64,000 nucleotides of DNA from Pseudovibrio sp. Ad37 (GTDB taxonomy: Bacteria; Pseudomonadota; Alphaproteobacteria; Rhizobiales; Stappiaceae): positions 1-64,000 of the forward strand of contig NZ_LMCF01000224.1 in NCBI RefSeq assembly GCF_001623075.1, read 5' to 3'. The notes beneath the pieces were generated by a model. That model worked only from the letters and a program-made list of their open reading frames with translations, was not told the origin of the DNA and did no database searches. Numbering within the stretch: position 1 is the stretch's first letter; every line of letters begins with the position of its first letter. Made by a program: the position numbers and the translations under genes. Positions 10,079 through 64,000 of the stretch are shown one piece after another.

Positions 10079-11685
10079 TGGCTGTCATCAAGTCTCAGGC
10101 TGCAACGGGTTCGGAAAGCTTTAAGAACAACCGCACCCTGCACCTCGCCGCAATGGATGAGGTCCGCGCCGCAAGCCAGCAAGCCCTTTTGGGCGGGGGC
10201 GAAGGCCCTCGCGAACGGCACGTGTCCCGTGGCAAGATCCTCCCGCGTGAGCGCGTTGCCCGCCTGATCGACCCGGGTTCTCCATTTCTGGAAGTTGGCC
10301 AGTTTGCCGCCCACAACATGTATGAGGGCGCCTCGCCTTCAGCTGGCATTGTCACCGGCATTGGCCGGGTCAACGGCATTGAGTGCATGATCGTGGCCAA
10401 CGATGCCACGGTAAAGGGCGGCACCTATTATCCGCTGACGGTCAAGAAGCACCTCCGCGCCCAAGAAATTGCCATGGAGAACAATCTCACATGCATTTAC
10501 TTGGTGGATTCTGGCGGCGCTAACCTGCCTCAGCAGGATGAGGTGTTCCCGGACAAAGAACACTTTGGCCGCATCTTCTACAATCAAGCCAACATGTCCG
10601 CAAAGGGCATTCCGCAAATCGCGGTGGTCATGGGCTCCTGTACCGCGGGTGGCGCATATGTGCCAGCCATGTGTGATGAGACCATCATCGTGAAAGAGCA
10701 AGGCACCATTTTCCTCGCCGGTCCTCCACTGGTGAAAGCCGCCACGGGCGAAGTGGTTTCTGCTGAAGACCTGGGCGGTGGGGATGTTCACACCCGCCTC
10801 TCTGGTGTGGCAGACCACTTGGCCCGTGACGATGCTCATGCGTTGGCACTGGCCCGTCAGGCCGTGTCCAATCTCAACCGCCGCAAGCCAGACCAACTTC
10901 TGCTGCAAACTCCAGAAGATCCGCTTTACGATCCTGAAGAAATCCTCGGCGTTGTCCCTGCGGACCTGAAAACACCATATGATGTGCGCGAAGTCATCGC
11001 CCGCGTGGTAGACGGCTCTCGCTTTGACGAATTCAAAGCCCGCTATGGCACCACCCTTGTCACCGGCTTTGCCCACATCCACGGCATGCCTGTCGGCATC
11101 ATCGCCAACAACGGCATATTGTTCTCGGAAGCTGCACTGAAAGGTGCTCACTTCGTTGAGCTGTGCTGTCAGCGCAAAATCCCGCTGGTCTTCCTGCAAA
11201 ACATCACCGGCTTCATGGTCGGGCAAAAGTATGAGGCAGGCGGCATCGCAAAAGACGGCGCTAAACTGGTAACAGCCGTAGCCTGCGCAAAAGTTCCAAA
11301 AATCACCATGCTCATTGGCGGTTCCTTCGGCGCTGGCAACTACGGCATGTGTGGCCGTGCTTACTCACCGCGCATGCTCTGGACATGGCCAAGCTCCCGC
11401 ATCTCCGTCATGGGTGGTCCTCAGGCTGCAGGCGTACTGGCAACCGTACGCCGTGACGGCATTGAGCGCAAAGGCGGCACTTGGTCAGCGGAAGAAGAAG
11501 CAACCTTCAAACAGCCGATCATTGATCAGTTTGAAGAGCAAGGACACCCGCTCTACGCCTCCGCACGCCTCTGGGATGACGGCATTGTCGACCCGCGCAA
11601 AACCCGTGACGTATTGGCACTGTCCATCGCAGCAAGCCTCAACGCACCAATCGAAGACACGCCATTCGGCGTCTTCCGCATGTAA
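10078..11685 (+). CDS. mccB: Methylcrotonyl-CoA carboxylase carboxyltransferase (beta) subunit
   Basis: This 535-residue carboxyltransferase of the biotin-dependent acyl-CoA carboxylase family moves CO2 from carboxybiotin to 3-methylcrotonyl-CoA. Visible family blocks are [18 protein letters not shown], the oxyanion-hole loops [13 protein letters not shown] and [16 protein letters not shown], and [14 protein letters not shown]. The last is the mccB-type sequence, as opposed to propionyl-CoA carboxylase. It is translationally coupled to ivd (TAATG overlap) and followed after 10 bases by the biotin-carrying subunit. Confidence 0.93.
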
Positions 11686-11695
11686 GGGGCTCGGT

Positions 11696-13684
11696 ATGTT
11701 CAAGAAAATCCTTATTGCGAACCGTGGTGAGATTGCTTGCCGTGTAGCAAAATCCGCCAAAGTCCTCGGCATCAAGGTGGTTGCCGTCTACTCAGATGCA
11801 GACCGCGATGCCCGCCACGTGCAGATGGCTGATGAGGCTTACCGCCTTGGCCCTGCGCCAGTGGCAGAGAGCTACCTCAACATTCCAGAGCTACTCAACG
11901 CTGCCAAAACCAGCGGCGCAGACGCCATCCATCCGGGCTACGGTTTCCTATCGGAAAACCCGGAGTTCGTGGAAGCTGTGGAAGCAGCTGGCCTTGTCTT
12001 CATTGGTCCACCTGCGGATGCAATTCGCGCCATGGGGCTGAAAGATGCTGCCAAAAAACTCATGGAAGAATCCGGCGTTCCAGTCGTGCCGGGCTATCAT
12101 GGCAGCAACCAGGACGCTGAGTTCCTGAAAAGTGAATCCGACAAGATCGGCTATCCGGTCCTCATCAAAGCCCGCGCAGGCGGCGGCGGCAAAGGCATGC
12201 GCCGTGTTGATGATCCGGCAGACTTCTTTGAAGCTCTGGAAGGCGCTCAGCGCGAAGGTCAGTCAAGCTTCGGCGACCCACGCGTCCTCATCGAGAAGTA
12301 CATCCTGTCACCGCGCCACATCGAGGTTCAGGTCTTCTGTGATGGTCATGGCAACGCGGTTCACTTGTTTGAGCGCGACTGCTCCCTGCAGCGTCGCCAC
12401 CAAAAGGTGATCGAGGAAGCCCCTGCCCCCGGTATGACCGAAGAGATGCGCAACGCCATGGGCGATGCTGCCGTCAAAGCAGCTCAAGCTGTGGGGTATG
12501 AAGGCGCTGGTACGGTTGAGTTCATTGTTGATGGCTCAGAAGGCCTCCGCTCTGACCGCTTCTGGTTCATGGAAATGAACACGCGCCTTCAGGTAGAACA
12601 TCCAGTCACAGAAGCCATCACCGGGCAAGATTTGGTCAACTGGCAGCTCTCCGTCGCTGCGGGCGGTGAATTGCCTCTGATGCAGGACGAGCTCACCATC
12701 TTCGGCCATGCATTCGAAGCGCGTATCTACGCTGAAGATGCTGAGGCAGGCTTCCTGCCAGCAACCGGAACTCTGAACGAGCTGAAACTGCCGGAATTGT
12801 TCGCCCGCATCGACAGCGGCGTACGCAAAGGCGATACAATCACCCCATACTACGATCCAATGATCGCAAAGGTGATCTGCCATGGCGAAACCCGTGAAGC
12901 TGCTCTGGCGAAAATGTCTCTGGCCTTGGAAAAGAGTCAGGCAGTTGGTTGCACCACCAACATCACTTTCCTGCATCGCCTGTGTAACCACGACGGCTTT
13001 GCAAAGGGTGAGATGGACACGGGCCTTATCGACCGTGAACTGGAAGCTCTCACTAAACCGACAGCTCCAACCAAGCACGCTTTCGCAATGGCTGCTCTCA
13101 TCGAGCTCGGCTTTGCAACTGAAACTGCATTGGTCCATAACGATCCGTGGGTGAGCCTCTCAGGTTGGCGTCATTGGACAGCAGCCCAGCAGATTGCGCA
13201 TCTGTCATGGCGCGATGAAGTCACCGAAGTTGTGGCAAACCGCCATCATGATGGTAGCCTGACCATTGCCATTGATGATGAAACCTTCAATTTGCAGATC
13301 CTCTCCGTAGACAACAACCACATGCGTGTGGATTTTGCCGGTCAAATCACCTCTGCTGATTTCTTCGCAGAAGACACCAGTCTCACCCTCTTCTCCGACG
13401 GTGTCACATGGCGTTTCGATCTGCCGGATCATCTGGCAGAGCAGGATGACAGTGCAGCCTCAGGCAACGCGATCACATCGCCAATGCCGGGCCTTGTGCG
13501 TGCTGTGAACTGTAAGCCGGGTGACGAGGTTTCTGAAGGCGATACGTTGATCGTGACCGAAGCCATGAAGATGGAACACTCTCTCAAAGCACCGCGTGAC
13601 GGCGTTGTGGCTGAAGTGATGGCATCTGCGGGTGACCAGGTGGAAGAAGGCGTTATACTCCTCACGCTTGAGGAGGAGGAATAA
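11696..13684 (+). CDS. mccA: Methylcrotonyl-CoA carboxylase biotin carboxylase/carrier (alpha) subunit
   Basis: The start is the ATG at 11696 (FKKILIANRGEIACRV); the frame is open further upstream but there it runs inside mccB. The 662 residues hold a biotin carboxylase domain (KARAGGGGKGMRRV, EKYILSPRHIEVQV, FMEMNTRLQVEHPVTE), a linker/BT region, and a C-terminal biotinyl domain with the biotin-accepting Lys625 in EAMKMEH. Together with mccB it carboxylates 3-methylcrotonyl-CoA to 3-methylglutaconyl-CoA. The length is typical of MccA. Confidence 0.93.
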   Translation: MFKKILIANRGEIACRVAKSAKVLGIKVVAVYSDADRDARHVQMADEAYRLGPAPVAESYLNIPELLNAAKTSGADAIHPGYGFLSENPEFVEAVEAAGLVFIGPPADAIRAMGLKDAAKKLMEESGVPVVPGYHGSNQDAEFLKSESDKIGYPVLIKARAGGGGKGMRRVDDPADFFEALEGAQREGQSSFGDPRVLIEKYILSPRHIEVQVFCDGHGNAVHLFERDCSLQRRHQKVIEEAPAPGMTEEMRNAMGDAAVKAAQAVGYEGAGTVEFIVDGSEGLRSDRFWFMEMNTRLQVEHPVTEAITGQDLVNWQLSVAAGGELPLMQDELTIFGHAFEARIYAEDAEAGFLPATGTLNELKLPELFARIDSGVRKGDTITPYYDPMIAKVICHGETREAALAKMSLALEKSQAVGCTTNITFLHRLCNHDGFAKGEMDTGLIDRELEALTKPTAPTKHAFAMAALIELGFATETALVHNDPWVSLSGWRHWTAAQQIAHLSWRDEVTEVVANRHHDGSLTIAIDDETFNLQILSVDNNHMRVDFAGQITSADFFAEDTSLTLFSDGVTWRFDLPDHLAEQDDSAASGNAITSPMPGLVRAVNCKPGDEVSEGDTLIVTEAMKMEHSLKAPRDGVVAEVMASAGDQVEEGVILLTLEEEE

Positions 13685-53697: not shown

Positions 53698-54244
53698 TCA
53701 CACTCCAATTATTCTTGTTTTTTAAGCTGTTTGCAGCCTTGGAAGTTTATTAATTTACAACAGCCGCCCTAAGCTAACAAGCTTGCCACCCTAAACCGGC
53801 CCCTTTGATGCAAAGCCTCTTAAGACGAATAAAATAATTAATAAAATCAACTAGATATAAGAATTCTAAAGGCCACTCCATAAGCGAACAACCATGTTCT
53901 CTAACCAGACTGCGACATTATGTAGTCTACTTATTTACAGCGCATCTTTCTAATATATCTGAGAGAGATTGTGGGGTCTCTCCAAGGTTGGGGGTGTTAT
54001 TATGCGTCGACTTCCTTTTAAGACTGTTCGGTGTGCGGCAACTGACTTCTGTGGCACCGTCGCTGTAACGAGTATTCTGGTAGGCATTCTCTATCTGATT
54101 TTCACGTTCACATGAGTCCGGCGGGTTTCCTGACATGTTGAAACGCAGGCATCTGTGGGGCAGTCGACACTCCCCACTGGCGAACGTCTGCAACTTGATG
54201 CATTCTTGACTTTGATGCTCAAGTAATCTTCAGATGACTGTCTT
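53698..54244. other. Long intergenic region between gntR and the hydroxyacid dehydrogenase
   Basis: About 550 bases. No gene is assigned apart from a weak small open frame at 54002. A minus-strand open frame of 88 codons (53927-54193) has no ribosome site and odd composition. The region may hold remains of a deleted transporter locus, since sugar-acid regulators usually face one. Confidence 0.4.
54002..54115 (+). CDS. Possible 37-residue single-helix membrane peptide
   Basis: MRRLPFKTVRC... ends in a hydrophobic helix (VAVTSILVGILYLIFTFT). GGGGGTG lies five bases before the ATG. The basic start, single helix and clear ribosome site are typical of small membrane proteins, but chance is a real alternative at this length. 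Confidence 0.25.
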   Translation: MRRLPFKTVRCAATDFCGTVAVTSILVGILYLIFTFT

Positions 54245-55189
54245 ATGATCGATGTTCTTCAACTAAGCCCTTATGCGCCCAATGAAATCAACGAGGAGCT
54301 GGAAAAATGCGCCCCGCTTGCTCGCTATTGGGAACTTCAACAAGACGAAGAGCTGAGAGCTCGGACCTTGCCGAACATCCGCATCGTCGCAACCAAGGGT
54401 GATGTTGGCCTCTCCAGTGAGCTGATGGCAGAAATGCCCAACCTTGAGCTTATTGCGATCTATGGCGCAGGTTACGACAAAGTTGATCTGAAACAGGCCC
54501 GCGACCGAAACATCATCATCACAACCACACCAGACGCCTTGACCGAAGCCGTGGCCGATCATGTCGTGGCCCTTGCTCTGGCATCCTCTCGCCGAATTGC
54601 AGAGGGAGACCGCTTTATCCGCAATGGGGACTGGCTCAATGGCAAATTAGGTATCGGCTACAGCCTGCGAGGTAAAACACTCGGCATCTTTGGATATGGC
54701 CGCATTGGCAGAAAAGCCGCCAAAATTTTAGGCGGCACATTTGGTATGCAAATTTTGTACTGTGATCGCAACGCAGACCCGAAACAAGATAAACAATGCC
54801 GGTCCTCTCCGTTGGAACTGGCAAGCGAATCCGACGTGCTTGTCATTGCTGCATCTGGCAGCCCGGACACAAAAAATATTATAGATATTAATATATTAGA
54901 AGCTCTGGGCCCGAGCGGGCTTTTGATCAATATCGCCCGTGGTTCATTAGTAAACACTCAACATTTGATCACTGCACTTGAGAACAGAACACTCGGGGCA
55001 GCAGCCTTGGATGTATTTCCGGATGAGCCTAATGTTCCCAATGAGCTGATCGCGTCCCCCTACACAACCCTAACCCCTCACCTCGCGAGTGCCACACTCG
55101 AAACCAGACGAGAAATGGGGTGCCAAGTGATTGAAAATATTTCATCTTACAGGAAAAATGGAGAAGTATTTAACCGGCTAATTTTCTAA
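54245..55189 (+). CDS. D-2-hydroxyacid dehydrogenase (glyoxylate/hydroxypyruvate reductase-like)
   Basis: This 314-residue NAD(P)-dependent enzyme has the Rossmann motif GIFGYGRIGRKAA near residue 149, the catalytic Arg in INIARGSLVN, the Glu in DVFPDEPNVP and the His in LTPHLASAT. It reduces 2-ketoacids such as hydroxypyruvate or glyoxylate. Cofactor choice is suggested by YCDRNAD after the motif: an Asp followed by Arg is mixed evidence. It lies upstream of a LacI gene on the same strand. Confidence 0.85.
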   Translation: MIDVLQLSPYAPNEINEELEKCAPLARYWELQQDEELRARTLPNIRIVATKGDVGLSSELMAEMPNLELIAIYGAGYDKVDLKQARDRNIIITTTPDALTEAVADHVVALALASSRRIAEGDRFIRNGDWLNGKLGIGYSLRGKTLGIFGYGRIGRKAAKILGGTFGMQILYCDRNADPKQDKQCRSSPLELASESDVLVIAASGSPDTKNIIDINILEALGPSGLLINIARGSLVNTQHLITALENRTLGAAALDVFPDEPNVPNELIASPYTTLTPHLASATLETRREMGCQVIENISSYRKNGEVFNRLIF

Positions 55190-55307
55190 TCTATACGTAA
55201 TCCAAATAACATTTACATAGAAAAAACAAAAATATAGCTCACACGCACACGATTCAGGTGTTATTGTCGCCTGATAATTCAACTTACTTTATAAATAAAG
55301 CAAATTC

Positions 55308-56330
55308 ATGCCTTTAAAAAAATCCAAAGTTACTGTGTCCGATATTGCGAAAGCAGCGGGAGTATCCGTTGCGACTGTCTCGAATACCATAAATGACACA
55401 GGCCGAATGACCGATGAAACCAAAGCTCGCGTAAAGAAAGCTATGCAAGAGCTGGGGTTTGTCAGAGATTACAACGCCGCCAAACTCCGGTCTGGCCGTT
55501 CGCGATTGGTCGGCGTTCTCGTGCCGGATATTTCAATTCCATTTTACGCTGAGTTCTGCACGTCATTGGAAGCAGCTCTCTCAGAGCACGGCTACCTGCC
55601 CGTTATCGCCAATGTCGGCGAAGACACCAAGCGCCAGCAAACCATGCTTGAAGAAGTCATCGGCCACGGCGTCGCAGGCATAGCAATCAGCCCGAGCGCA
55701 GGCACGAAAAGAAGTGACTTCGAGATCGCCAACACGCGCAGAATTCCCGTGGTCACCTTCTGCCGGGAAATTGAAGGTCTGGCGATGGACTACATTGGCT
55801 CAAACAATTATCAGGCTGCCCAGCTGGCCACAAAGCATCTGCTTGAGCAAGGCCATCGCAAGTTCGCAATGATTGCAGGTCTGCAGGAAACCATGCCGGG
55901 TCGAGAACGCAAACGCGGCTTCTACGACGCCTTAAAAGCAGCGGGCATTCCTGAATCTGACATCCATGTTGAAGTATGCGGCTTTGACCGCGAATGCGGA
56001 CGCATAAAAGCGCAGCAGCTCGTCTCAAACAAGGCTGAGTTCACCGCCCTGCTCTGCCATAATGATCTTGTCTCAGTCGGCGCAGCTGCAGAACTCAAGA
56101 AAGCAGGTCGGAACATCGGTGAAGACCTGGCCGTAGTTGGCTTCGACAACCTGCCAGAAGGTGAAGCATGGACTCCAGCACTGACCTCGGTTGAAAGCTA
56201 CCCGCGCACCATCGGCAAGGACGTCGCCAACTTACTCATCAAACGCCTTGATGGAGAACCGACACCAACCACGACAGAACGGGTGGAGCCGCATTTATTG
56301 GTACGCGACTCCTCCAGTTTTAAGATTTAA
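55308..56330 (+). CDS. LacI-family transcriptional regulator
   Basis: The 340-residue protein has an N-terminal HTH/hinge (KVTVSDIAKAAGVSVATVSNTIND, GFVRDYNAAKLRSGRS) and a periplasmic-binding-protein-like effector domain (VLVPDISIPFYAEF, AVVGFDNLPEGEAWTPALTSV). It should sense a sugar or sugar acid and control a nearby catabolic or transport operon. It is convergent with the aldo/keto reductase, with six bases between the stops. Confidence 0.9.
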   Translation: MPLKKSKVTVSDIAKAAGVSVATVSNTINDTGRMTDETKARVKKAMQELGFVRDYNAAKLRSGRSRLVGVLVPDISIPFYAEFCTSLEAALSEHGYLPVIANVGEDTKRQQTMLEEVIGHGVAGIAISPSAGTKRSDFEIANTRRIPVVTFCREIEGLAMDYIGSNNYQAAQLATKHLLEQGHRKFAMIAGLQETMPGRERKRGFYDALKAAGIPESDIHVEVCGFDRECGRIKAQQLVSNKAEFTALLCHNDLVSVGAAAELKKAGRNIGEDLAVVGFDNLPEGEAWTPALTSVESYPRTIGKDVANLLIKRLDGEPTPTTTERVEPHLLVRDSSSFKI

Positions 56331-56336
56331 GACCCC

Positions 56337-57302
56337 TTATTCAGGACGCGGCTCGTCCCAAAGGTTTTCCCAGGTGTACGGGCTGCCGGACAAGAAGTAC
56401 TCATCGCCTGGAATAAAGCGATGGTTCTTGTCCAGATGCGCGATGCGGGACATGTCATGCTCATCAAGATCGCACTCAAGCGCTGCCAGGTTTTGCGCCA
56501 GACGTTCAGGATTACCTGACTTTGGCACAACGATAACACCGTTCTGGATCGCCCATTTCAGCACCACCTGAGATGTCGTCGCGCCATACTTCCCAGCAAT
56601 CTCTTCAATAACAGGGTGAGCAAGAACAACATCCTGCTTTTGCGCATCCGTCAGATCCGCTGGAACACCACGTCCAAGCGGAGAGTATGCGGTCAGCGCA
56701 ATGTTGTTGTGCAGGCAATACGAGCGAAGATCATTCTGCTGAAGGAAAGGATGCAACTCCACCTGATTAACAGCCGGAACAACTCGCGCTTCCATAATCA
56801 AATCTTCCAGCTTTTGCGTGCTGAAGTTGGAAACACCGATCGTGTTCGCTAGACCATCATCAAAGCACTCTTCCAGCGCCCGCCATGTATCCATCAGCGG
56901 CACATCTTCAAGCGAATAATAGTCTTCCGAGCTGGTAGGCTTCTTCACGCCCGTCTTCAGCGCCACAGGCCAGTGCATGAGGTAAAGATCAAGGTAGTCC
57001 AGCCGAAGGTCCGCAAGCGTCTTTTCCAGCGCGCCTCTCACATCTTCAGGCTTATGAAAGCTGTTCCATAGCTTGGAGGTGATGAAGAGTTCGCTGCGCT
57101 TGATGCCCTCTTCCTTCACGGCATCAGCAATCGCCTGCCCAATCTCAGCTTCATTGTCGTACATCATCGCACAATCGATGTGGCGATACCCAGCAGTCAA
57201 CGCCGCACGAAGTGCAGGATAGGTCTTACCCTCTCCAAAGTTCACCGTACCAAGGCCCAGCATTGGCATCTTGTAACCGGTAGAAAGTGTCTTGGATCGC
57301 AT
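56337..57302 (-). CDS. Aldo/keto reductase
   Basis: This 321-residue NADPH-dependent TIM-barrel reductase has the tetrad Asp (in HIDCAMMYDNEAEIG with catalytic Tyr), Lys (FITSKLWN) and His (YLMHWPVAL). The cofactor-binding end is VVPKSGNPERLAQNL. It is of the AKR type that reduces sugars and aldehydes; its place beside LacI and hydroxyacid dehydrogenase genes suggests sugar-derived substrates. The ATG at 57302 is preceded by GGAGGGGGC. Confidence 0.9.
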   Translation of the reverse strand: MRSKTLSTGYKMPMLGLGTVNFGEGKTYPALRAALTAGYRHIDCAMMYDNEAEIGQAIADAVKEEGIKRSELFITSKLWNSFHKPEDVRGALEKTLADLRLDYLDLYLMHWPVALKTGVKKPTSSEDYYSLEDVPLMDTWRALEECFDDGLANTIGVSNFSTQKLEDLIMEARVVPAVNQVELHPFLQQNDLRSYCLHNNIALTAYSPLGRGVPADLTDAQKQDVVLAHPVIEEIAGKYGATTSQVVLKWAIQNGVIVVPKSGNPERLAQNLAALECDLDEHDMSRIAHLDKNHRFIPGDEYFLSGSPYTWENLWDEPRPE

Positions 57303-57309
57303 GATGCCC

Positions 57310-57348
57310 CCTCCAAAAAAGAAAACCTGCCAGCAAACGCCAGCAGGT
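57310..57348 (-). terminator. Terminator after the HEAT-repeat gene
   Basis: CCTGC..GC-GTTT-GC..GCAGG (two internal mismatches) is followed on the minus strand by TTTTCTTTTTT. It lies between the HEAT-repeat gene stop and the aldo/keto reductase start. Confidence 0.6.
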
Positions 57349-57429
57349 TTCCTTACAACGTATTCCGCACCAGATAAATACCGATGCCCATCACGAGATT
57401 TGGTTTCGCCTCATTTGAGAGCAGAAACC

Positions 57430-59796
57430 TCAAGCCACGTATTTGTTCAGCACTTCAAGAGCCGCTAGCTTGCGGGAAAGATCTCCATCCAGCCACTGCT
57501 CCATAGCACCAAGAACGTTCTCCTGAGCATAGCAACGCAAACACGTTGCGGCTCCGGGAATAAGAACGCCATTTTCCATCCGCGCAGCTTCGAAAATCTC
57601 ATCCAGATTACTAGTATCTGAGTTTGCACTCACAAGCTCCAGCGCAGTCACTCGCAGGCGACGACGAGGGCTTTTGAGATAGCTACGCACATCAATGTTA
57701 GTGTCAGGTTTTCCGGCCAAAACTTTCAGCGCTGAAGCAGAAACAGCGTCGGTTTTGTCCTTCAGCGCTGCCGTCACAACCTTCTCAGCTTCTGGATTTG
57801 AGGAGGTGCCAAGCAGCTCAACACGCATCGCACGCACAGCAACATCATTCTCTGGCGGCAAAGCAAGGATACGCTCGATAGCTTCCTCAGAAAGCTCAAG
57901 CCCATTCTCAACCAGATGAACGAGGCTCTGACTAGCCGCAAACCGAACCTGCATCTGACGATCAGACAAAGCAGACACCAGCGCATCAATCAGTTCAGGA
58001 CGCTTCGCATCACCACAAATGCGCAAGGCCAGCAAGCGAATATCCAAAGCAGGATCATCCGGACGACCCGGCACAACGCGCTTCTTCTCAATCAGCTCAT
58101 TCGCAAGCTCAAGGAAGTGCATGTCTTTCTTGCCAAGATCGACAGGCTCTTCAGCCAGCTTCTCAATCTCGTCTTCAGTGTTCAAGATCGCACCGAGTGT
58201 TGAGCCCGGGAAGGCAACAACATTGTCAGGAAGGTCTTCCACACGCTCAATAGCGCCCTCTGGCACATCTTCAGCAACCACTGGATCAGCACCGGCAGTG
58301 ACCTTCGCAACCAGCTCTTCGGCGGAAGGCTCTTCGGCAACAACCTCTTCCTCAGCGACCACTTCATTTGGCGCCTGAGGCTCAATCACATTGCCTTCAC
58401 GATCAATCTGAATGCGCGGCTGCTTGCCGTCACCCTTGCCATTGCTACCCAGATCAGACGGGTCTTTTTCTTTTGCACTATCGAGAATATCCTGATCATG
58501 CGCTTCAGGCATCAGCTTGCCAGAAACCGCCCAAACCAATTGTACAGCAGCATTGTCCGCAAAATCACCTTCACCTTCAGCCAGCTTGGCCAGAGAGTTC
58601 AGGGCAGCAAGACGGATTTCCTGTTCTGCACTTGTCACCTGCTCCTGCAAAACAGCAAGTCCATCAACGCTCGGCTTCTCGCCGTGAAGCACGATAAACG
58701 CTTTCAACACTGCTTCTTCCTGACGATGGACAGCAATCTCACTCAACAGAGCGGTCGCAGCTTCACTCTCAACCTTCGCAAGGACAGGCACAAGCGCGGC
58801 AACAAAAGCATCACTCGCACTACGCAAAGAGCGTTCAATCCGCTCGATCAGCGCATCCGGCTTGGTGATTTCAGAGGAAGCCATCCGACCAAGCGCCATA
58901 ATACGCAGGGTCTCCTCCTCGTCTTCAAAAGCAACCTTTTCAAGCTTTGAGTAGGAGAGTTTACCAGATGCTTTCAGTGCCAGACGACGCATTTGCGGTT
59001 CACTATCAGCCAACAGTACAGCCAGATCAGCTTCCTCACCACGAGCCATCAGCACTTCAGCCGCAGCAACCCGCACATCAGGGTCAGCATCTGCAAACAG
59101 CACACGCAGGATCTCACCAACCCGCTCATCATTCGCAGAGGAGAGCGCACGCGCCGTATGCTCACGCACACGAGCAGACGCATCCGTCGCCAGTGAGGCC
59201 AGTTCAAGCAACCCGGCAACGCCCATCTCAGAAAGCGCCATAGTTACTTCCGGCCAAACTTCCTGACCAAATGGGTCGCGGGCAGCTTCCAACAAAGCAG
59301 CAGCAGATGCTTCACATTTCAACGTGCCCAGCGCCAGAATGGACTTGCGCTGCACATCCAGCCAATCATCCCATTCAGCACCGTAACCGTCCCATGCAAC
59401 ATCATCTTCGCAACGGTCTTTAGCCAGCTTTGTCAGCCATTCTTCCGCAACTGTCCCGCCAACAATTGCAAGTCCGTCAATGGCAGAAAGCTTCACTTCC
59501 AACACTGGATCGTTCTGCAAACTCCACAGCAGAACATCAGCATCCAGGCCTTTGCCTGCGCTGATCAGAGCTTCAACCGCATCACTGCGGACGTCTTCAT
59601 CTTCGTCTCGCAGCGCTTCAGCAAGCGCAGCATGAGCCGTCGAAGTGCCAAATTTTCCAAGAATTTGAGCGGACAGACACTTTTCGCGCTCTTCGCCGTT
59701 TGCAAGCAACTCACACAAGATTTTCACGAGCTTATCAGTAGCTTCGGTCTGCTCCACTGCAAAATCCTGATCTAAATGCCTGATGGAAACCGTCAT
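57430..59796 (-). CDS. Large HEAT-repeat protein next to the Aio/Idr-type oxidoreductase genes
   Basis: The 788 residues are built almost wholly of HEAT/PBS-lyase-type repeats of about 30 residues (ALAEALRDEDEDVRSDAVEALI, FADADPDVRVAAAEVLMA, ALSDRQMQVRFAASQSLVHL). The two arrays are split by an acidic, low-complexity segment (about 455-550, with EVVAEEEVVAEEPSAEELV). There is no signal peptide, so it is cytoplasmic, and no enzymatic domain. Its position directly downstream of the molybdoenzyme genes suggests a scaffold or chaperone for cofactor loading or Tat quality control, but a terminator separates it from them. The function is inference. Confidence 0.75.
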   Translation of the reverse strand: MTVSIRHLDQDFAVEQTEATDKLVKILCELLANGEEREKCLSAQILGKFGTSTAHAALAEALRDEDEDVRSDAVEALISAGKGLDADVLLWSLQNDPVLEVKLSAIDGLAIVGGTVAEEWLTKLAKDRCEDDVAWDGYGAEWDDWLDVQRKSILALGTLKCEASAAALLEAARDPFGQEVWPEVTMALSEMGVAGLLELASLATDASARVREHTARALSSANDERVGEILRVLFADADPDVRVAAAEVLMARGEEADLAVLLADSEPQMRRLALKASGKLSYSKLEKVAFEDEEETLRIMALGRMASSEITKPDALIERIERSLRSASDAFVAALVPVLAKVESEAATALLSEIAVHRQEEAVLKAFIVLHGEKPSVDGLAVLQEQVTSAEQEIRLAALNSLAKLAEGEGDFADNAAVQLVWAVSGKLMPEAHDQDILDSAKEKDPSDLGSNGKGDGKQPRIQIDREGNVIEPQAPNEVVAEEEVVAEEPSAEELVAKVTAGADPVVAEDVPEGAIERVEDLPDNVVAFPGSTLGAILNTEDEIEKLAEEPVDLGKKDMHFLELANELIEKKRVVPGRPDDPALDIRLLALRICGDAKRPELIDALVSALSDRQMQVRFAASQSLVHLVENGLELSEEAIERILALPPENDVAVRAMRVELLGTSSNPEAEKVVTAALKDKTDAVSASALKVLAGKPDTNIDVRSYLKSPRRRLRVTALELVSANSDTSNLDEIFEAARMENGVLIPGAATCLRCYAQENVLGAMEQWLDGDLSRKLAALEVLNKYVA

Positions 59797-59815
59797 GATT
59801 GGCTTTTCTCCTCAA

Positions 59816-59860
59816 GCGTATTCCCGAGTAGTGGACTCCGGTGTTCGGGCAAGAATACGC
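59816..59860. repeat. Dispersed palindromic repeat, copy D
   Basis: GCGTATTCCCGAGTAG...GTGTTCGGGCAAGAATACGC has the same outer GCGTATT/AATACGC arms as copies A and B. It lies between the HEAT-repeat gene and the molybdoenzyme terminator. Confidence 0.65.
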
Positions 59861-59949
59861 AAAACAAAAACTTAAAGCAGGTTGAAAACAAACTGACTTA
59901 AGGCCCACTTCTGCAAAAAGGCTCAAACTTGCGAGCCCCTTGGCACAAG

Positions 59950-59981
59950 CGGAAAAAGAACTGGCGGGATAGCCCCGCCAG
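59950..59981 (-). terminator. Terminator after the molybdoenzyme large-subunit gene
   Basis: CTGGCGGG and CCCGCCAG pair perfectly (8 bp, five-base loop), followed on the minus strand by TTCTTTTTCC. It implies that the HEAT-repeat gene has its own promoter or depends on readthrough. Confidence 0.8.
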
Positions 59982-59992
59982 CTCCTGATTTC

Positions 59993-62668
59993 TTATGCAA
60001 TATCGCGACGTGCGAAAGACATAGACCGGAAACTATCCTTGTATGGGCTTGTGCCGATCTTTTTGATGCGACCAACACCCATCTTGTAGTTGTAGTTACC
60101 GCTGATCCAGTCCACCACCCGGCCAGACAGAGCATTTGCTGGCTGTGCAGTGTGCAGGAAGTCCATGTAAAGCATGCCCTTCTTCAGCGCTGGGGTAACA
60201 ATAGCTACCGCAGTAATAGCGCCTTCAGTCAGCTCGATATGGCCTTCATCCATCAGTTTGGTAAAGGTGAAGTCATCGCCTTCAATGCCCACTGTGGTGT
60301 CTGTCTGAACCGGAATACGGTCAGAGAAGAGCATCACGTAGTCACCGTTCTCGATACCGCGCTCTTTCGCATCATCTGGGTGGATTTCAACCCAGTTTTC
60401 AGGCCAGCGCTGCACGATGTAAGGACGACGGCGATCATCATAACCAGACTGCCAACGCTCGTTGATACGACCGGAAGTCACCCAAAGCTCATCATCCTTC
60501 GGCTTCATCCATGCCCAGTAATCGGAGAACAGGCTCCATGGGCTCTTCTGGATATTGCACTTACCAGTTTGAGAGTTGAAGTGAGTGAGCTTCTTGTTGT
60601 AGCGGTTGGAACCGGTTGGACCAGTCGCTGACAGTTCACGGGTTGTATCATGCAAGCGTTGGGTACCCTGAAGGGTTCCGTCTTCAAGCATCACAACTGG
60701 GCCCTGAATACCGTCAGTACCGAACTCAGCAAACTTCTCGTGAAGAGTCTTGCCTTCCTTCTGAGCAGCAACCTTCAACATAAAGAAGTCTTTACGGCTG
60801 CCACGTGAGAAGCGGGCTGCTTCTTCAAGCACTTCGTTGGAGTCTTTCCAATCGTAGCCTTTGAAGCCCATTTTCTTCGCGAGGTTCGCAACAATCCACC
60901 AGTCAGGTTTCGCTTCACCCGGTGCATCGTAGAATTTTGGATACAGACGCAGACGACGCTCACCGTTTGCACGGGTGAATGTGTCTTCACCCCAACCAGC
61001 AGCTGGGAAGACGATGTCTGCGAAACGTGCACCAATTGGATCTACGAGGTAGATATCCTGGTTCACAACAACCATGCCACCGCTATCTACACGCTTTTTC
61101 AGAGTGTCGATGATGGTCTGCTTGTCGTAAGAGCGCACCTGATTTGGGTTCTGAACAGTCAGCTCTTCAAACTTTGCAGCAAGAGACTGGGAACCACACA
61201 TGGACTGAATCCAGGTGTTGCCAATCACGTGAGCAAAGCGGGTGTGACCACTCATCAAATACCGGTCGGTATCCATTGCGCGACGACGACGGCCTGGCAG
61301 TTTCTCAGGAGACTTGTTGCGTGGGTAAGACCCACCCTTCAAACCACCACGCTGGTGACCACCAGCACGGCCAATGACCTGCCCCGGACGACCGCCACAA
61401 CCCGTGATAATACCAAGAGACGAAATCGCATTGGTGTTACCGGTGTTGTTGGACCAGTAGAAGCCCTTTTCGATCATAATGGACGTCTTAGGACGGGAGC
61501 CATCATCACGAGGTTTAGCCATCCACTCAGCAGCCTTGTAGATTTTCTCTACATCGATCTGAGCGGTTTCAGCAGCTGCAGTTGGTTCAAACTCATCCTG
61601 AGCCATCAGCCACTTAACAAAGTCGTCGTAACCTTTGGTCTGGAATTTGCCCCAGGTCGTACGCCACTGCCATGGAGTGTTACGAGTACCCTGACCGAAG
61701 CCTGATGAACTCTCCCACTTGTTGTTGACCCAATCGCGGATCCATTCAGCGTCTTGCCAACCGTTTTCGATGATCACACGAGCAATCGCGTTCACAACAA
61801 GAAGGTCAGTACCTGGCTGGATGTCGAGCCACAGACCACCATTCTTCTCCGCATAAGCCACACCAGCAGTACGGCGTGGGATCATGAAGATTGTCTTTTG
61901 ACCGTTCTGGATGGCTGGCATAATCCAGTCAGTAAACAGAATGGTCTTGGACTCGTATGGGTCGGTACCGCAGATCATCAGAGTCTCGGCATCTTTCCAG
62001 TCCTGATAAGAAGGACCGAAGTTGTCGAAACCAGCATCACGGAAGCCCGGAGTGGACGTCACATCAGATGGAGTGTCGTGGAATGTGAAGTTCGCAGTGC
62101 TAACAGAGCGAAGAGCATACTTGGAAATCGCGTAGGTGTTTTCCATGTAGCCGTAGGAGAATGTTTTCACGCAGAAAGCGTTCTCGCCGTGCTTCTTGAT
62201 AGTGTGCTTACCAACTTCCGCTGCAATTTCCAACGCCAGATCCCAGGTGACCGGCATCAAAGTGCCGAACATGCGGATCATAGGAGACTTCAGACGATCA
62301 CGAGTTGGGGTCTGAGGGTTGTAAACCTTCTTCGCCAGCGCACCACCACGGATGGAAGAGTTACCATTGATGTTTACATGCTTGGTATCTTTATCCGGAA
62401 TGATGATCACATGGTGAGGTTCGCCCTTGTGCAGCACAACGTTGTACTGGTTCGGAGCAACCCATGGGCCTAGCGGATCAACCGGGAAATCGACGCCAAA
62501 GGCGTTTTCAGCGGCTTTTTCACCACCTACTTTTCCGGCCTTAACAGGCCAGCGATAGATCTTATAACCACACGCTACGATGCAATAATCACAAGCAGTG
62601 GAAAGAACATCAGCATCTACCGGAGGCAGCGGAATGTTTGTTCCAGGAATGTAGTAGGGAGTTGGCAT
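59993..62668 (-). CDS. Aio/Idr-type molybdopterin oxidoreductase large subunit
   Basis: The 891-residue DMSO-reductase-superfamily protein carries a 3Fe-4S-type motif Cys26-x2-Cys29-x3-Cys33 (CDYCIVACGYKIYRW), with Ser near residue 104 (GNSSIRGG) where a fourth ligand would be Cys in 4Fe-4S enzymes. This is the signature of arsenite oxidase AioA and iodate reductase IdrA. It is somewhat longer than AioA, which is near 820-850. Molybdopterin segments (ICGTDPYESKTILFTDWIMP, GCGGRPGQVIGRAGGH) are clear. It has no Tat signal of its own and should be exported with the Rieske subunit. The substrate, arsenite or iodate, is not decided by these motifs. A peroxidase-like partner favours iodate. Confidence 0.85.
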   Translation of the reverse strand: MPTPYYIPGTNIPLPPVDADVLSTACDYCIVACGYKIYRWPVKAGKVGGEKAAENAFGVDFPVDPLGPWVAPNQYNVVLHKGEPHHVIIIPDKDTKHVNINGNSSIRGGALAKKVYNPQTPTRDRLKSPMIRMFGTLMPVTWDLALEIAAEVGKHTIKKHGENAFCVKTFSYGYMENTYAISKYALRSVSTANFTFHDTPSDVTSTPGFRDAGFDNFGPSYQDWKDAETLMICGTDPYESKTILFTDWIMPAIQNGQKTIFMIPRRTAGVAYAEKNGGLWLDIQPGTDLLVVNAIARVIIENGWQDAEWIRDWVNNKWESSSGFGQGTRNTPWQWRTTWGKFQTKGYDDFVKWLMAQDEFEPTAAAETAQIDVEKIYKAAEWMAKPRDDGSRPKTSIMIEKGFYWSNNTGNTNAISSLGIITGCGGRPGQVIGRAGGHQRGGLKGGSYPRNKSPEKLPGRRRRAMDTDRYLMSGHTRFAHVIGNTWIQSMCGSQSLAAKFEELTVQNPNQVRSYDKQTIIDTLKKRVDSGGMVVVNQDIYLVDPIGARFADIVFPAAGWGEDTFTRANGERRLRLYPKFYDAPGEAKPDWWIVANLAKKMGFKGYDWKDSNEVLEEAARFSRGSRKDFFMLKVAAQKEGKTLHEKFAEFGTDGIQGPVVMLEDGTLQGTQRLHDTTRELSATGPTGSNRYNKKLTHFNSQTGKCNIQKSPWSLFSDYWAWMKPKDDELWVTSGRINERWQSGYDDRRRPYIVQRWPENWVEIHPDDAKERGIENGDYVMLFSDRIPVQTDTTVGIEGDDFTFTKLMDEGHIELTEGAITAVAIVTPALKKGMLYMDFLHTAQPANALSGRVVDWISGNYNYKMGVGRIKKIGTSPYKDSFRSMSFARRDIA

Positions 62669-62678
62669 GATTTACTCC

Positions 62679-63275
62679 TCACCCTTTGAGATTGTCGTAG
62701 CGGCCATAGATCAGCCCGAACATACCAACAGCGTAAACATCGTCGCCGTCCAGCTCGAGAAGAACCTGAGGCAAGCTCTGGTAAGCCTGGCCGGAGATGA
62801 AGATACCGTGACGGGTTAGGTCAAAGGTGGTCAAATGCAGTGGGCATGGACCCAGAGCCTTATCACCTTTCTGATAGGTACCCTGCAGCGGACCACCCTG
62901 GTGAGTACAGGTGTAGTTGAACGCTACAATGTCCTTGTCAGAGCCAATACCGCCACCAGCTTCCTTGCCCAACTTAACAATCATGGACTCGCAATAAGCG
63001 CCTTCGTCCGGATAGTTAAAGTCGAGCGGTTCGTCTTCTTTCAGCTCAGAAAGCTTACAAATGAACTTGCGCTCATAAGTGGAGACCATCGCAGGCACCT
63101 TCGCAGAGGAAGGACCAGACCTGAGAGCCACCATAACGGTGAAGGTAGAAATACCGGAAGTCAGCAGGAACTGACGGCGTGTCATCACACAACGCTTGCC
63201 AGTTTTTGCAATTTCCTCAGGGCCGTTCACGACCTCAATCATCTCAGGAGAGACGGACTTAGGTTGATGTGTCAT
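62679..63275 (-). CDS. Aio/Idr-type Rieske small subunit with Tat signal
   Basis: The protein has 198 residues. A twin-arginine signal (MTRRQFLLTSGISTFTVMVAL, RR at 33-34 after a long N-region) takes the folded complex to the periplasm. The Rieske 2Fe-2S site is Cys123-x-His125 and Cys144-x2-His147 (CTHQGG, CPLH); the extra cysteine pair forming the usual Rieske disulfide is absent. It passes electrons between the molybdenum subunit and a c-type cytochrome. I prefer the ATG at 63275, which AGGAG precedes at better spacing than 63281. It starts ten bases before the large-subunit gene. Confidence 0.88.
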   Translation of the reverse strand: MTHQPKSVSPEMIEVVNGPEEIAKTGKRCVMTRRQFLLTSGISTFTVMVALRSGPSSAKVPAMVSTYERKFICKLSELKEDEPLDFNYPDEGAYCESMIVKLGKEAGGGIGSDKDIVAFNYTCTHQGGPLQGTYQKGDKALGPCPLHLTTFDLTRHGIFISGQAYQSLPQVLLELDGDDVYAVGMFGLIYGRYDNLKG

Positions 63276-63287
63276 CTCCATCTCCTC

Positions 63288-64000
63288 TTAATTCGTTACA
63301 GCCGGAAGCGGTTCATACTCAGGAAGATCAGGTGTTTCCATGAGAAGACGCTCGCCAGTGAAGCTTTCTACGAAGGCCACCAGATCAGCTTTCTCTTTGT
63401 CGGTCAGACCGAGAGGCTTAATCAAGTCGGTTTTCGTTGCAGCCCAGTCGTTAGTGCCACCACCCTGGTTGTAGAATTCTACGACGTCTTCCAGAGTTTC
63501 CAGCATGCCGTTGTGCATGTAAGGAGCGGTGTACTTGGTGTAACGCAGAGAAGGCACACGGAACTTGCCGAGGTCAGCATTCTGCTTGGTCACGAAGTAA
63601 AGGCCCGGATCGTCCTTCCACTTGCGGTATTTCTCTTCCGTGGAGCCTTTTGCAAAAAGCTCGAAGCGGAAGGTGATTTGCGCAAGTTCATCGTCTTCCC
63701 AACCGTCATAAGCTGGAACGCCGAGGTTGTAGTACTTCTGGTTGGAGATCAGAGCACCATCATGACAGGTAGAACAACCAGCCTTACCGGTGAACAGTTC
63801 CATACCGCGCTTCTGCTTATCACTCAGAGCATCATCATCGCCGAGCATGTACAGATCAAACGGAGTATCACGCTGAACGATTGACCGCTCAAATGCAGCA
63901 ATCGCCATATAAGCGTCACGCATCAGAGGGTATTCAGTACCGAACACATCGTTGAAGCGCTCACGATACTCAGGAATAAACGCAAGGCGCGCTTCCATCA
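63288..64000 (-). CDS. MauG/diheme cytochrome c peroxidase-like protein, 5' part beyond the window
   Basis: The C-terminal 238 residues are visible and the frame runs off the right edge. A c-type heme motif CSTCH (Cys75, Cys78, His79 counted from the Met at 63998) and the downstream TAPYMHNGMLETLEDVVEFYNQGG with a likely distal Met are typical of the C-terminal heme domain of diheme peroxidases/MauG. The N-terminal heme should lie outside. It is 12 bases upstream of the Rieske gene, hence one operon. In iodate-reducing bacteria IdrP1/P2 are proteins of this type next to IdrAB and are thought to remove peroxide. Confidence 0.82.
   Translation of the reverse strand, partial: MEARLAFIPEYRERFNDVFGTEYPLMRDAYMAIAAFERSIVQRDTPFDLYMLGDDDALSDKQKRGMELFTGKAGCSTCHDGALISNQKYYNLGVPAYDGWEDDELAQITFRFELFAKGSTEEKYRKWKDDPGLYFVTKQNADLGKFRVPSLRYTKYTAPYMHNGMLETLEDVVEFYNQGGGTNDWAATKTDLIKPLGLTDKEKADLVAFVESFTGERLLMETPDLPEYEPLPAVTN

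Follow-up and report, generated by a model that had tools for sequence, protein, structure and literature searches.

Based on its sequence, a locus of Pseudovibrio sp. Ad37 is very probably a complete marine-type iodate reductase operon, idrP2-idrP1-idrB-idrA together with a gene for a HEAT-repeat protein, and the enzyme belongs to a known family. The window, i.e. the whole 64,000-base stretch that was analysed, covers bases 1-64000 (the left part) of a 102,103-bp contig from this 5.9 Mb genome, and the operon runs past its right edge. The five genes lie on the minus strand, are transcribed from right to left in the order idrP2-idrP1-idrB-idrA-HEAT and are separated by gaps of 6-196 bp (Table 1). 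A preliminary description of the window had put forward a candidate iodate reductase locus, a proposal with which the phylogenetic tree, the substrate-pocket residue and the gene order all agree. Its gene inventory was incomplete, as the HEAT gene lies inside the described range but was not named as part of the system.

The large subunit scored 426.8 bits with TIGR02693 (cut-off 359.05), matched the Pfam domains Rieske_3, Molybdopterin and Molydop_binding, and was the sole protein of the genome above the TIGR02693 cut-off, which leaves one Aio/Idr-type large subunit in the genome. Residues C26, C29, C33 and S104 satisfy CX2CX3CX70S, the motif given for IdrA of strain DN11 (PMC10149662), and bear out the 3Fe-4S cysteine pattern and serine that the preliminary description had read from this protein; four other Idr rows of the alignment (Azonexus, Thiothrix, L112 and L113) have His in the column of the motif Ser. 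IdrA was 99.7-99.8% identical to its counterparts in Pseudovibrio sp. Alg231-02 and P. ascidiaceicola DSM 16392 (L097 and L098), the latter differing in about 3 of 891 residues. Homologues with 65-100% identity were found in marine Alpha- and Gammaproteobacteria, including an Aliiroseovarius metagenome-assembled genome (MAG; L038) at 79%; iodate reduction has been shown for a species of Aliiroseovarius (PMC11445184).

Both subunits exceed the cut-offs of the NCBIfam arsenite-oxidase models, named 'arsenate reductase (azurin)', as would be expected of an arsenite oxidase (AioAB) with peroxidases adjoining by chance. These models do not separate Idr from Aio. The subunit plan is also alike, and the positions of the AioA pocket residues H195, R419 and H423 are kept in the window protein. 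However, IdrA shares only about 27-30% identity with AioA. A maximum-likelihood tree was built from 43 rows, namely 26 Idr, 15 AioA or AioA-like and 2 outgroup. A branch with 100/100 support set the 26 Idr rows apart, its stem measuring 1.59 changes per column, and the 15 AioA rows lay outside. The AioA group itself required two changes, because the long-branch rows Cytobacillus and Bosea fall outside it. Judged from solved AioA and the alignment, the substrate-pocket glutamate of AioA, Glu203 in A. faecalis numbering, was present in all 15 AioA rows (alignment of the Bosea row is poor at this position). None of the 26 Idr rows has it; they carry Ser (23 rows, Ser205 in the window protein), Ala (one, Vibrio) or Asp (two, Azonexus and Thiothrix). 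The Arg of HNRP is likewise replaced.

The neighbourhood also differs from that of arsenite oxidases. No peroxidase product is listed in any of ten annotated AioA or AioA-like plasmid loci, the gene tables of which are incomplete, and this fits the earlier expectation that arsenite oxidase loci usually lack a diheme peroxidase, as well as a published analysis (PMC8692401) in which idrABP1P2 synteny marks the IdrA clade and AioA neighbourhoods are without peroxidases. Genes of ars type or ArsR genes appear in the tables of eight, and aioX/aioR in that of a ninth. At the Pseudovibrio locus no aioX, aioS, aioR or ars genes were recognised by inspection of open reading frames (ORFs) in window positions 40000-64000 and contig positions 63200-77000, where ORFs as short as 75-80 aa were covered in 54000-64000 and 65500-73000 only, or by Pfam scans of nine genes; the earlier statement that the window shows no arsenic-resistance genes thus held over its inspected part. 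On the tree, the pocket residue and the neighbourhood we rejected the arsenite oxidase reading as highly improbable. Four genomes (G009, G143, G257 and G345) hold both IdrA and a separate AioA-like protein with 30-35% identity to the window IdrA, so that both enzymes can coexist.

The small subunit, IdrB, scored 115.3 bits with TIGR02694 (cut-off 95.65) and carries a twin-arginine (Tat) motif and a Rieske motif, in accordance with its earlier reading as a Tat-exported Rieske protein. By motif and inspection, IdrB has a Tat-type leader and IdrA has none. The window edge cuts idrP1, leaving the C-terminal part inside (63288..64000; frame 63288-63998). The whole gene encodes a CCP/MauG-family protein with two CXXCH motifs and, by inspection, a Sec-type leader, and the solved chains closest to it are di-haem enzymes; its designation as a MauG-like diheme peroxidase was therefore sound. 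Sequence past position 64000 revealed the second diheme peroxidase, idrP2, directly upstream. P1 and P2, each with two CXXCH motifs, were about 38% alike (tblastn against near-identical loci), close to the published value of 37% (PMC8801600).

Neighbourhood counts were made on 83 idr loci (L011-L092 and L095). A P1 homologue was found in 76 of 76 loci with at least 1 kb before idrA, and the remaining 7 of the 83 end too soon; a P2 homologue (at least 50% identity) with 350 bp before the gene was found in 65. The order idrP2, P1, B, A is described as characteristic of iodate reductases (PMC10989891), and the same order in Pseudovibrio supports the iodate reductase reading. Gene order and strand are also as in the idrABP1P2 cluster of Denitromonas sp. 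IR-12, Pseudomonas sp. SCT, Aromatoleum/Azoarcus and Roseovarius azorensis, in which two diheme peroxidases likewise precede the Rieske subunit, of Tat type, and the molybdopterin catalytic subunit with its 3Fe-4S cluster.

Table 1. Features of the idr locus of Pseudovibrio sp. Ad37; up to position 64000 window and contig coordinates are the same.
Feature	Length	Position	Strand	Remarks
idrP2 (PerB), diheme peroxidase	357 aa	contig 64443-65516, beyond window	-	CXXCH at 55 and 194
idrP1 (PerA), CCP/MauG family	380 aa	contig 63288-64430	-	CCP_MauG 136.1 bits; CXXCH at 74 and 219
idrB, Rieske [2Fe-2S] small subunit	200 aa	62679-63281	-	TIGR02694; TRRQFL at 34; CTH...CPLH at 125
idrA, molybdopterin catalytic subunit	891 aa	59993-62668	-	TIGR02693; 3Fe-4S site C26/C29/C33/S104; IdrA clade
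HEAT-repeat protein gene	788 aa	57430-59796	-	HEAT-type domain matches; downstream of idrA
FNR/FixK-type box, TTGAT-N4-ATCAA		contig 65718-65731, beyond window		perfect; between idrP2 and divergent regulator
Divergent Crp/Fnr-type regulator gene	255 aa	contig 65790-66557, beyond window	+

Previous work showed that Denitromonas cannot respire iodate without idrA (PMC8692401). In static culture, iodate is also reduced by three marine aerobic Alphaproteobacteria that carry idr clusters; in the marine alphaproteobacterium Roseovarius azorensis, iodate and static growth induce the idr genes, and an IdrA homologue was the top protein in a band cut from an iodate-reductase active gel (PMC11445184). 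By analogy, Pseudovibrio would reduce iodate like these bacteria.

Several observations weigh against this assignment. The genetic proof by idrA deletion comes from Denitromonas and not from Pseudovibrio, and the Idr rows of our tree include no experimentally tested IdrA, so that the clade label rests on synteny and published accessory genes. On the supporting side, a plasmid-borne relative from Azonexus (51.5% identity) has the arrangement ccp-ccp-B-A along with moaA and genes for a two-component system and a cytochrome c, and this accessory set is known from the clade of confirmed iodate reducers (PMC8801600). The carriers of matching accessory genes, Azonexus and Thiothrix, are only about 51% identical to the Pseudovibrio IdrA and have Asp rather than Ser in the pocket; a two-component system, cytochrome c or moaA was not recognised in the inspected neighbourhood adjoining the Pseudovibrio idr genes, which instead have a divergent Crp/Fnr regulator, an FNR-type box and the HEAT gene. 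About 8 kb separate the idr genes of Azonexus from an ArsR/SmtB-family regulator, and ars-type neighbours alone thus cannot separate the families. The HEAT gene, in turn, was not found in the subclade with about 51% identity (G578, G427, W02 and W03) or in some gammaproteobacterial holders. The differing accessory genes, and a pocket residue that varies by subclade, could also mean that the substrate in Pseudovibrio is another oxidant, such as a halogen oxyanion or an organic oxide, or that the marine subclade has shifted its substrate. We regard this as improbable, as the synteny is unbroken and the evidence from the active band and from induction by iodate comes from a marine bacterium, R. 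azorensis (PMC11445184).

Following the chemistry of the models that were published for Denitromonas and for Pseudomonas SCT, we propose that IdrA, with its Mo cofactor and 3Fe-4S cluster, would be exported without a leader of its own through Tat together with IdrB. The periplasmic IdrAB would receive electrons from a c-type cytochrome and reduce iodate to hypoiodous acid, which would disproportionate to iodide and iodate, and the two exported diheme peroxidases would clear by-product oxidants such as H2O2. Before export, the HEAT protein might assemble or proofread IdrAB in the cytoplasm.

The distribution of the HEAT gene follows that of idrA closely. The locus counts were taken from the 80 loci most like the window IdrA out of at least 592, and so describe close relatives. 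A profile search found it after idrA, on the same strand, in 72 of 73 non-gammaproteobacterial loci with at least 200 bp of downstream sequence. These include L025, a 73-residue stub at a contig end; the sole miss, L089, is a MAG labelled Deltaproteobacteria, and L087, which ends inside idrA, was left out of the count. Besides the L025 stub, the profile recovered the gene in six loci where phmmer with ORF-start limits had missed it. All 13 Pseudovibrio-genus genomes with idrA had the HEAT gene and none of the three without idrA did. Among 387 alphaproteobacterial genomes it was present in 13 of 14 with idrA and in 0 of 373 others (0/3 with AioA only, 0/370 with neither), counting HEAT matches at E <=1e-20 and, as idrA, an IdrA of at least 55% identity; two candidates were scored per genome in the class searches, and two or three in the phylum searches. 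In the missing case, G063, a contig end cuts idrA, and a direct search of this genome for the HEAT gene was also empty. Eleven of the 13 HEAT genes adjoin idrA, one is split from it by contig ends (G251) and one lies about 13.5 kb away (G257); the match in G122 is weak (8e-24) and in pieces. Among 348 genomes of the phylum, strong matches (at least 388 bits) occurred only in G000 and G659, both with marine-type idrA, and partial matches of 57-72 bits in six further genomes are likely ordinary HEAT proteins. The class-wide and phylum-wide presence and absence led us to reject a chance neighbour.

We also rejected the idea that every idr holder carries the HEAT gene, as no strong match was found in G063, G403 (L082), G409 (L089), G421, G427, G578 or the plasmid records W01-W03. 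In G421 (66% IdrA identity) the match was limited to a 45-bit piece, and in G578 and G427 (51-52%) there was none; the Vibrio plasmid record, searched without the chromosomes, had no HEAT gene. Among gammaproteobacterial holders, the gene was present in the genomes behind L081, L083, L084, L085 and L088 and not in that behind L082. The HEAT gene is thus not needed for iodate reduction as such. Since G578 is alphaproteobacterial and yet without a match, the gene seems to track IdrA subclade more closely than host. In L017 the HEAT gene appears as two overlapping ORFs (10769-13146) and in G298 it has one in-frame TGA (C16:10986-13253), for which assembly error or recent decay are candidate explanations.

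A structural model of the HEAT protein (mean pLDDT, the predicted local distance difference test, 83.3; predicted template modelling score, pTM, 0.72) showed two confident alpha-solenoids, at about residues 12-443 and 580-788. The linker between them, about 135 residues long, is mostly of low confidence or disordered. A conserved S-T-L-x-x-I motif lies in the linker, beginning in its low-confidence part, and a second conserved stretch comprises W135 and W142-D-x-W-x-D-x-Q149. W142, D143, Q149, R270, R395 and S532 were among the residues invariant in 25 aligned sequences, which are 21-33% identical to the window protein; WD-x-[WR]-x-[DE]-x-Q was found in 60 of 65 sequences and S[TS][LMW]xxI in 59 of 65. 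Only HEAT-type domains scored above cut-off in Pfam and NCBIfam, no NCBIfam family reached its cut-off, and TorD/NarJ family models gave no match in these scans. Matches to the HEAT profile include alphaReps and phycocyanobilin lyase subunit alpha. Foldseek with the model retrieved generic long HEAT/ARM solenoids, with template modelling scores by query length of at most 0.40 among the 50 matches listed, and these gave no hint of a function. HEAT_2 repeats are shared with client-binding solenoids of the HEAT/PBS-lyase type, i.e. the CpcE/CpcF bilin lyases and alphaRep, whereas two solenoids, a motif-bearing disordered linker and the tie to idr set the Pseudovibrio protein apart.

With a mean uncorrected distance of 0.70 over 55 loci, compared to 0.21 for IdrA, the HEAT protein diverges about three times as much. 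Its distances track those of the idr genes (r 0.73-0.85, permutations 0/500), as expected of any linked gene, and common descent by itself would give the same result. Together with the missing gene in some gammaproteobacterial and deep-branching holders, this would suit a passenger that is linked by shared inheritance alone. Such a passenger is nevertheless improbable, given the presence in 13 of 14 idrA genomes and none of the others, retention even where the gene stands away from idrA, dN/dS (the ratio of non-synonymous to synonymous divergence) of 0.06 and 0.11 against two other Pseudovibrio loci, and invariant residues such as W142, D143, Q149 and S532 despite low identity.

A regulator or sensor adaptor is an unlikely role for the HEAT protein, although some features suit one. 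No leader was recognisable at its N-terminus by inspection; in L083 and L085 the gene is divergent and upstream of idrP2, where other loci have regulators; and it was not found in the subclade of about 51% identity, where the Azonexus and Thiothrix loci have a two-component system. However, regulator and HEAT gene occur together in L022 (hybrid kinase), L015 (Crp/Fnr), L078 (sigma-54) and L048 (BTAD), so that regulators swap and the HEAT gene stays, and the only domains matched are of HEAT type. As the gene before idrP2 differs between loci, membership of the HEAT gene in a regulator module became less likely.

With the upstream regulators varying, the HEAT gene staying and its product probably cytoplasmic, an assembly or export chaperone fits best, and we tentatively suggest that the HEAT protein may be a dedicated cytoplasmic assembly, proofreading or export chaperone for IdrAB ahead of Tat export. 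TorD, NarJ and DmsD are redox-enzyme maturation chaperones; they resemble the proposed role, as cytoplasmic operon-encoded partners of a Tat-exported Mo enzyme, and differ in architecture from a HEAT solenoid. The alpha-solenoid MMS19 is another client-binding protein, and a scaffold role for cofactor or metal proteins has precedent. More speculatively, the marine iodate reductase could be a five-gene system, in which an idr-specific HEAT solenoid binds IdrA or IdrB via WDxWxDxQ and the linker STLxxI and gates cofactor loading and Tat export, possibly as a molybdoenzyme chaperone unrelated to TorD/NarJ, in place of the accessory genes of the freshwater subclade.

Additionally, we examined the region upstream of idrP2. 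The 273-bp stretch before this gene contains a perfect TTGAT-N4-ATCAA box and a second box with one mismatch. The whole 20-kb locus holds three boxes with no more than one mismatch, including the two before idrP2, compared to 0.74 expected, and 5 of 200 shuffles reached three. An FNR-type box (at most one mismatch) lay within 350 bp of idrP2 in 21 of 65 idr loci, against 2.6% of 3250 random stretches from the same loci; the other 44 had no box this good, and kinship among the loci makes them non-independent samples. A below-cut-off similarity links the divergent regulator to FixK/FnrL. Its four cysteines (20, 25, 32 and 34) all lie close to the N-terminus and might, as a guess, bind an Fe-S cluster. 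Among five relatives compared, L015, L016 and L020 had a similar cysteine-rich N-terminus and L029 and L067 were without the group of cysteines. From these features we infer that an FNR/FixK-type regulator, acting at the putative box, probably switches on transcription of the operon at low oxygen.

The nearest upstream ORFs of the idr loci were grouped by blastp and ten representatives were run against Pfam. In a group of 18 (L021, L022, L030, L032-L035, L037, L039, L046, L049-L052, L056, L057, L087 and L090), mostly of about 750 aa, all three scanned ORFs were PAS hybrid histidine kinases with a receiver domain, which are candidate iodate sensors. In a group of 11, the one scanned and Pseudovibrio's own were both Crp/Fnr, and the one scanned from a group of four was BTAD. 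In a group of eight (L043:2663-4966, L088:2280-4730 and six related), the two scanned ORFs encode multi-haem cytochromes c that contain an ethylbenzene-dehydrogenase-like domain and might serve as dedicated electron donors.

Surface-seawater iodide is a main ozone sink and a main source of atmospheric iodine (PMC11445184), and who makes iodide from iodate in seawater is still being worked out. Pseudovibrio lives with sponges, corals and ascidians. As 13 of 16 examined Pseudovibrio-genus genomes carry idrA, host-associated iodate reduction can be tested in culturable strains. The HEAT gene offers a second marker for marine-type idr operons, and its product is possibly a missing part for making active IdrAB in other hosts; significant activity in crude extract could not be measured in published work (PMC11445184). 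Control through the FNR-type boxes could account for the low-oxygen induction described in the literature. The iodate reductase operon is of a known kind. In the open literature searched we found no report of iodate reductase in Pseudovibrio, and its texts held none of a HEAT-repeat chaperone for a molybdoenzyme, of a HEAT-repeat partner of iodate reductase or of FNR control of idr, FNR being mentioned there for nitrate reductase; as far as these texts go, the conserved HEAT gene and FNR-type control are thus not described, although figures and supplements may hold an earlier depiction of either.

A consensus scan found no terminator-like sites in 57200-64000; shuffles averaged 7.3, and the result thus carries little weight. 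A second HEAT-like protein, with a weak DNA_alkylation match, is encoded about 1 kb past the Crp/Fnr gene (L009:10550-11755, contig 67550-68755). Compared with two other Pseudovibrio loci (L013 and L014), synonymous divergence (dS) of the window locus (57430-64000) was 0.22-0.32 across idrP2-P1-B-A and 0.52-0.89, about 2-4 times the core value, in the HEAT gene, the Crp/Fnr gene and a flanking aldo-keto reductase gene. Divergence changes sharply where the four-gene core begins and ends, which may reflect recombination of the core or strong codon constraint.

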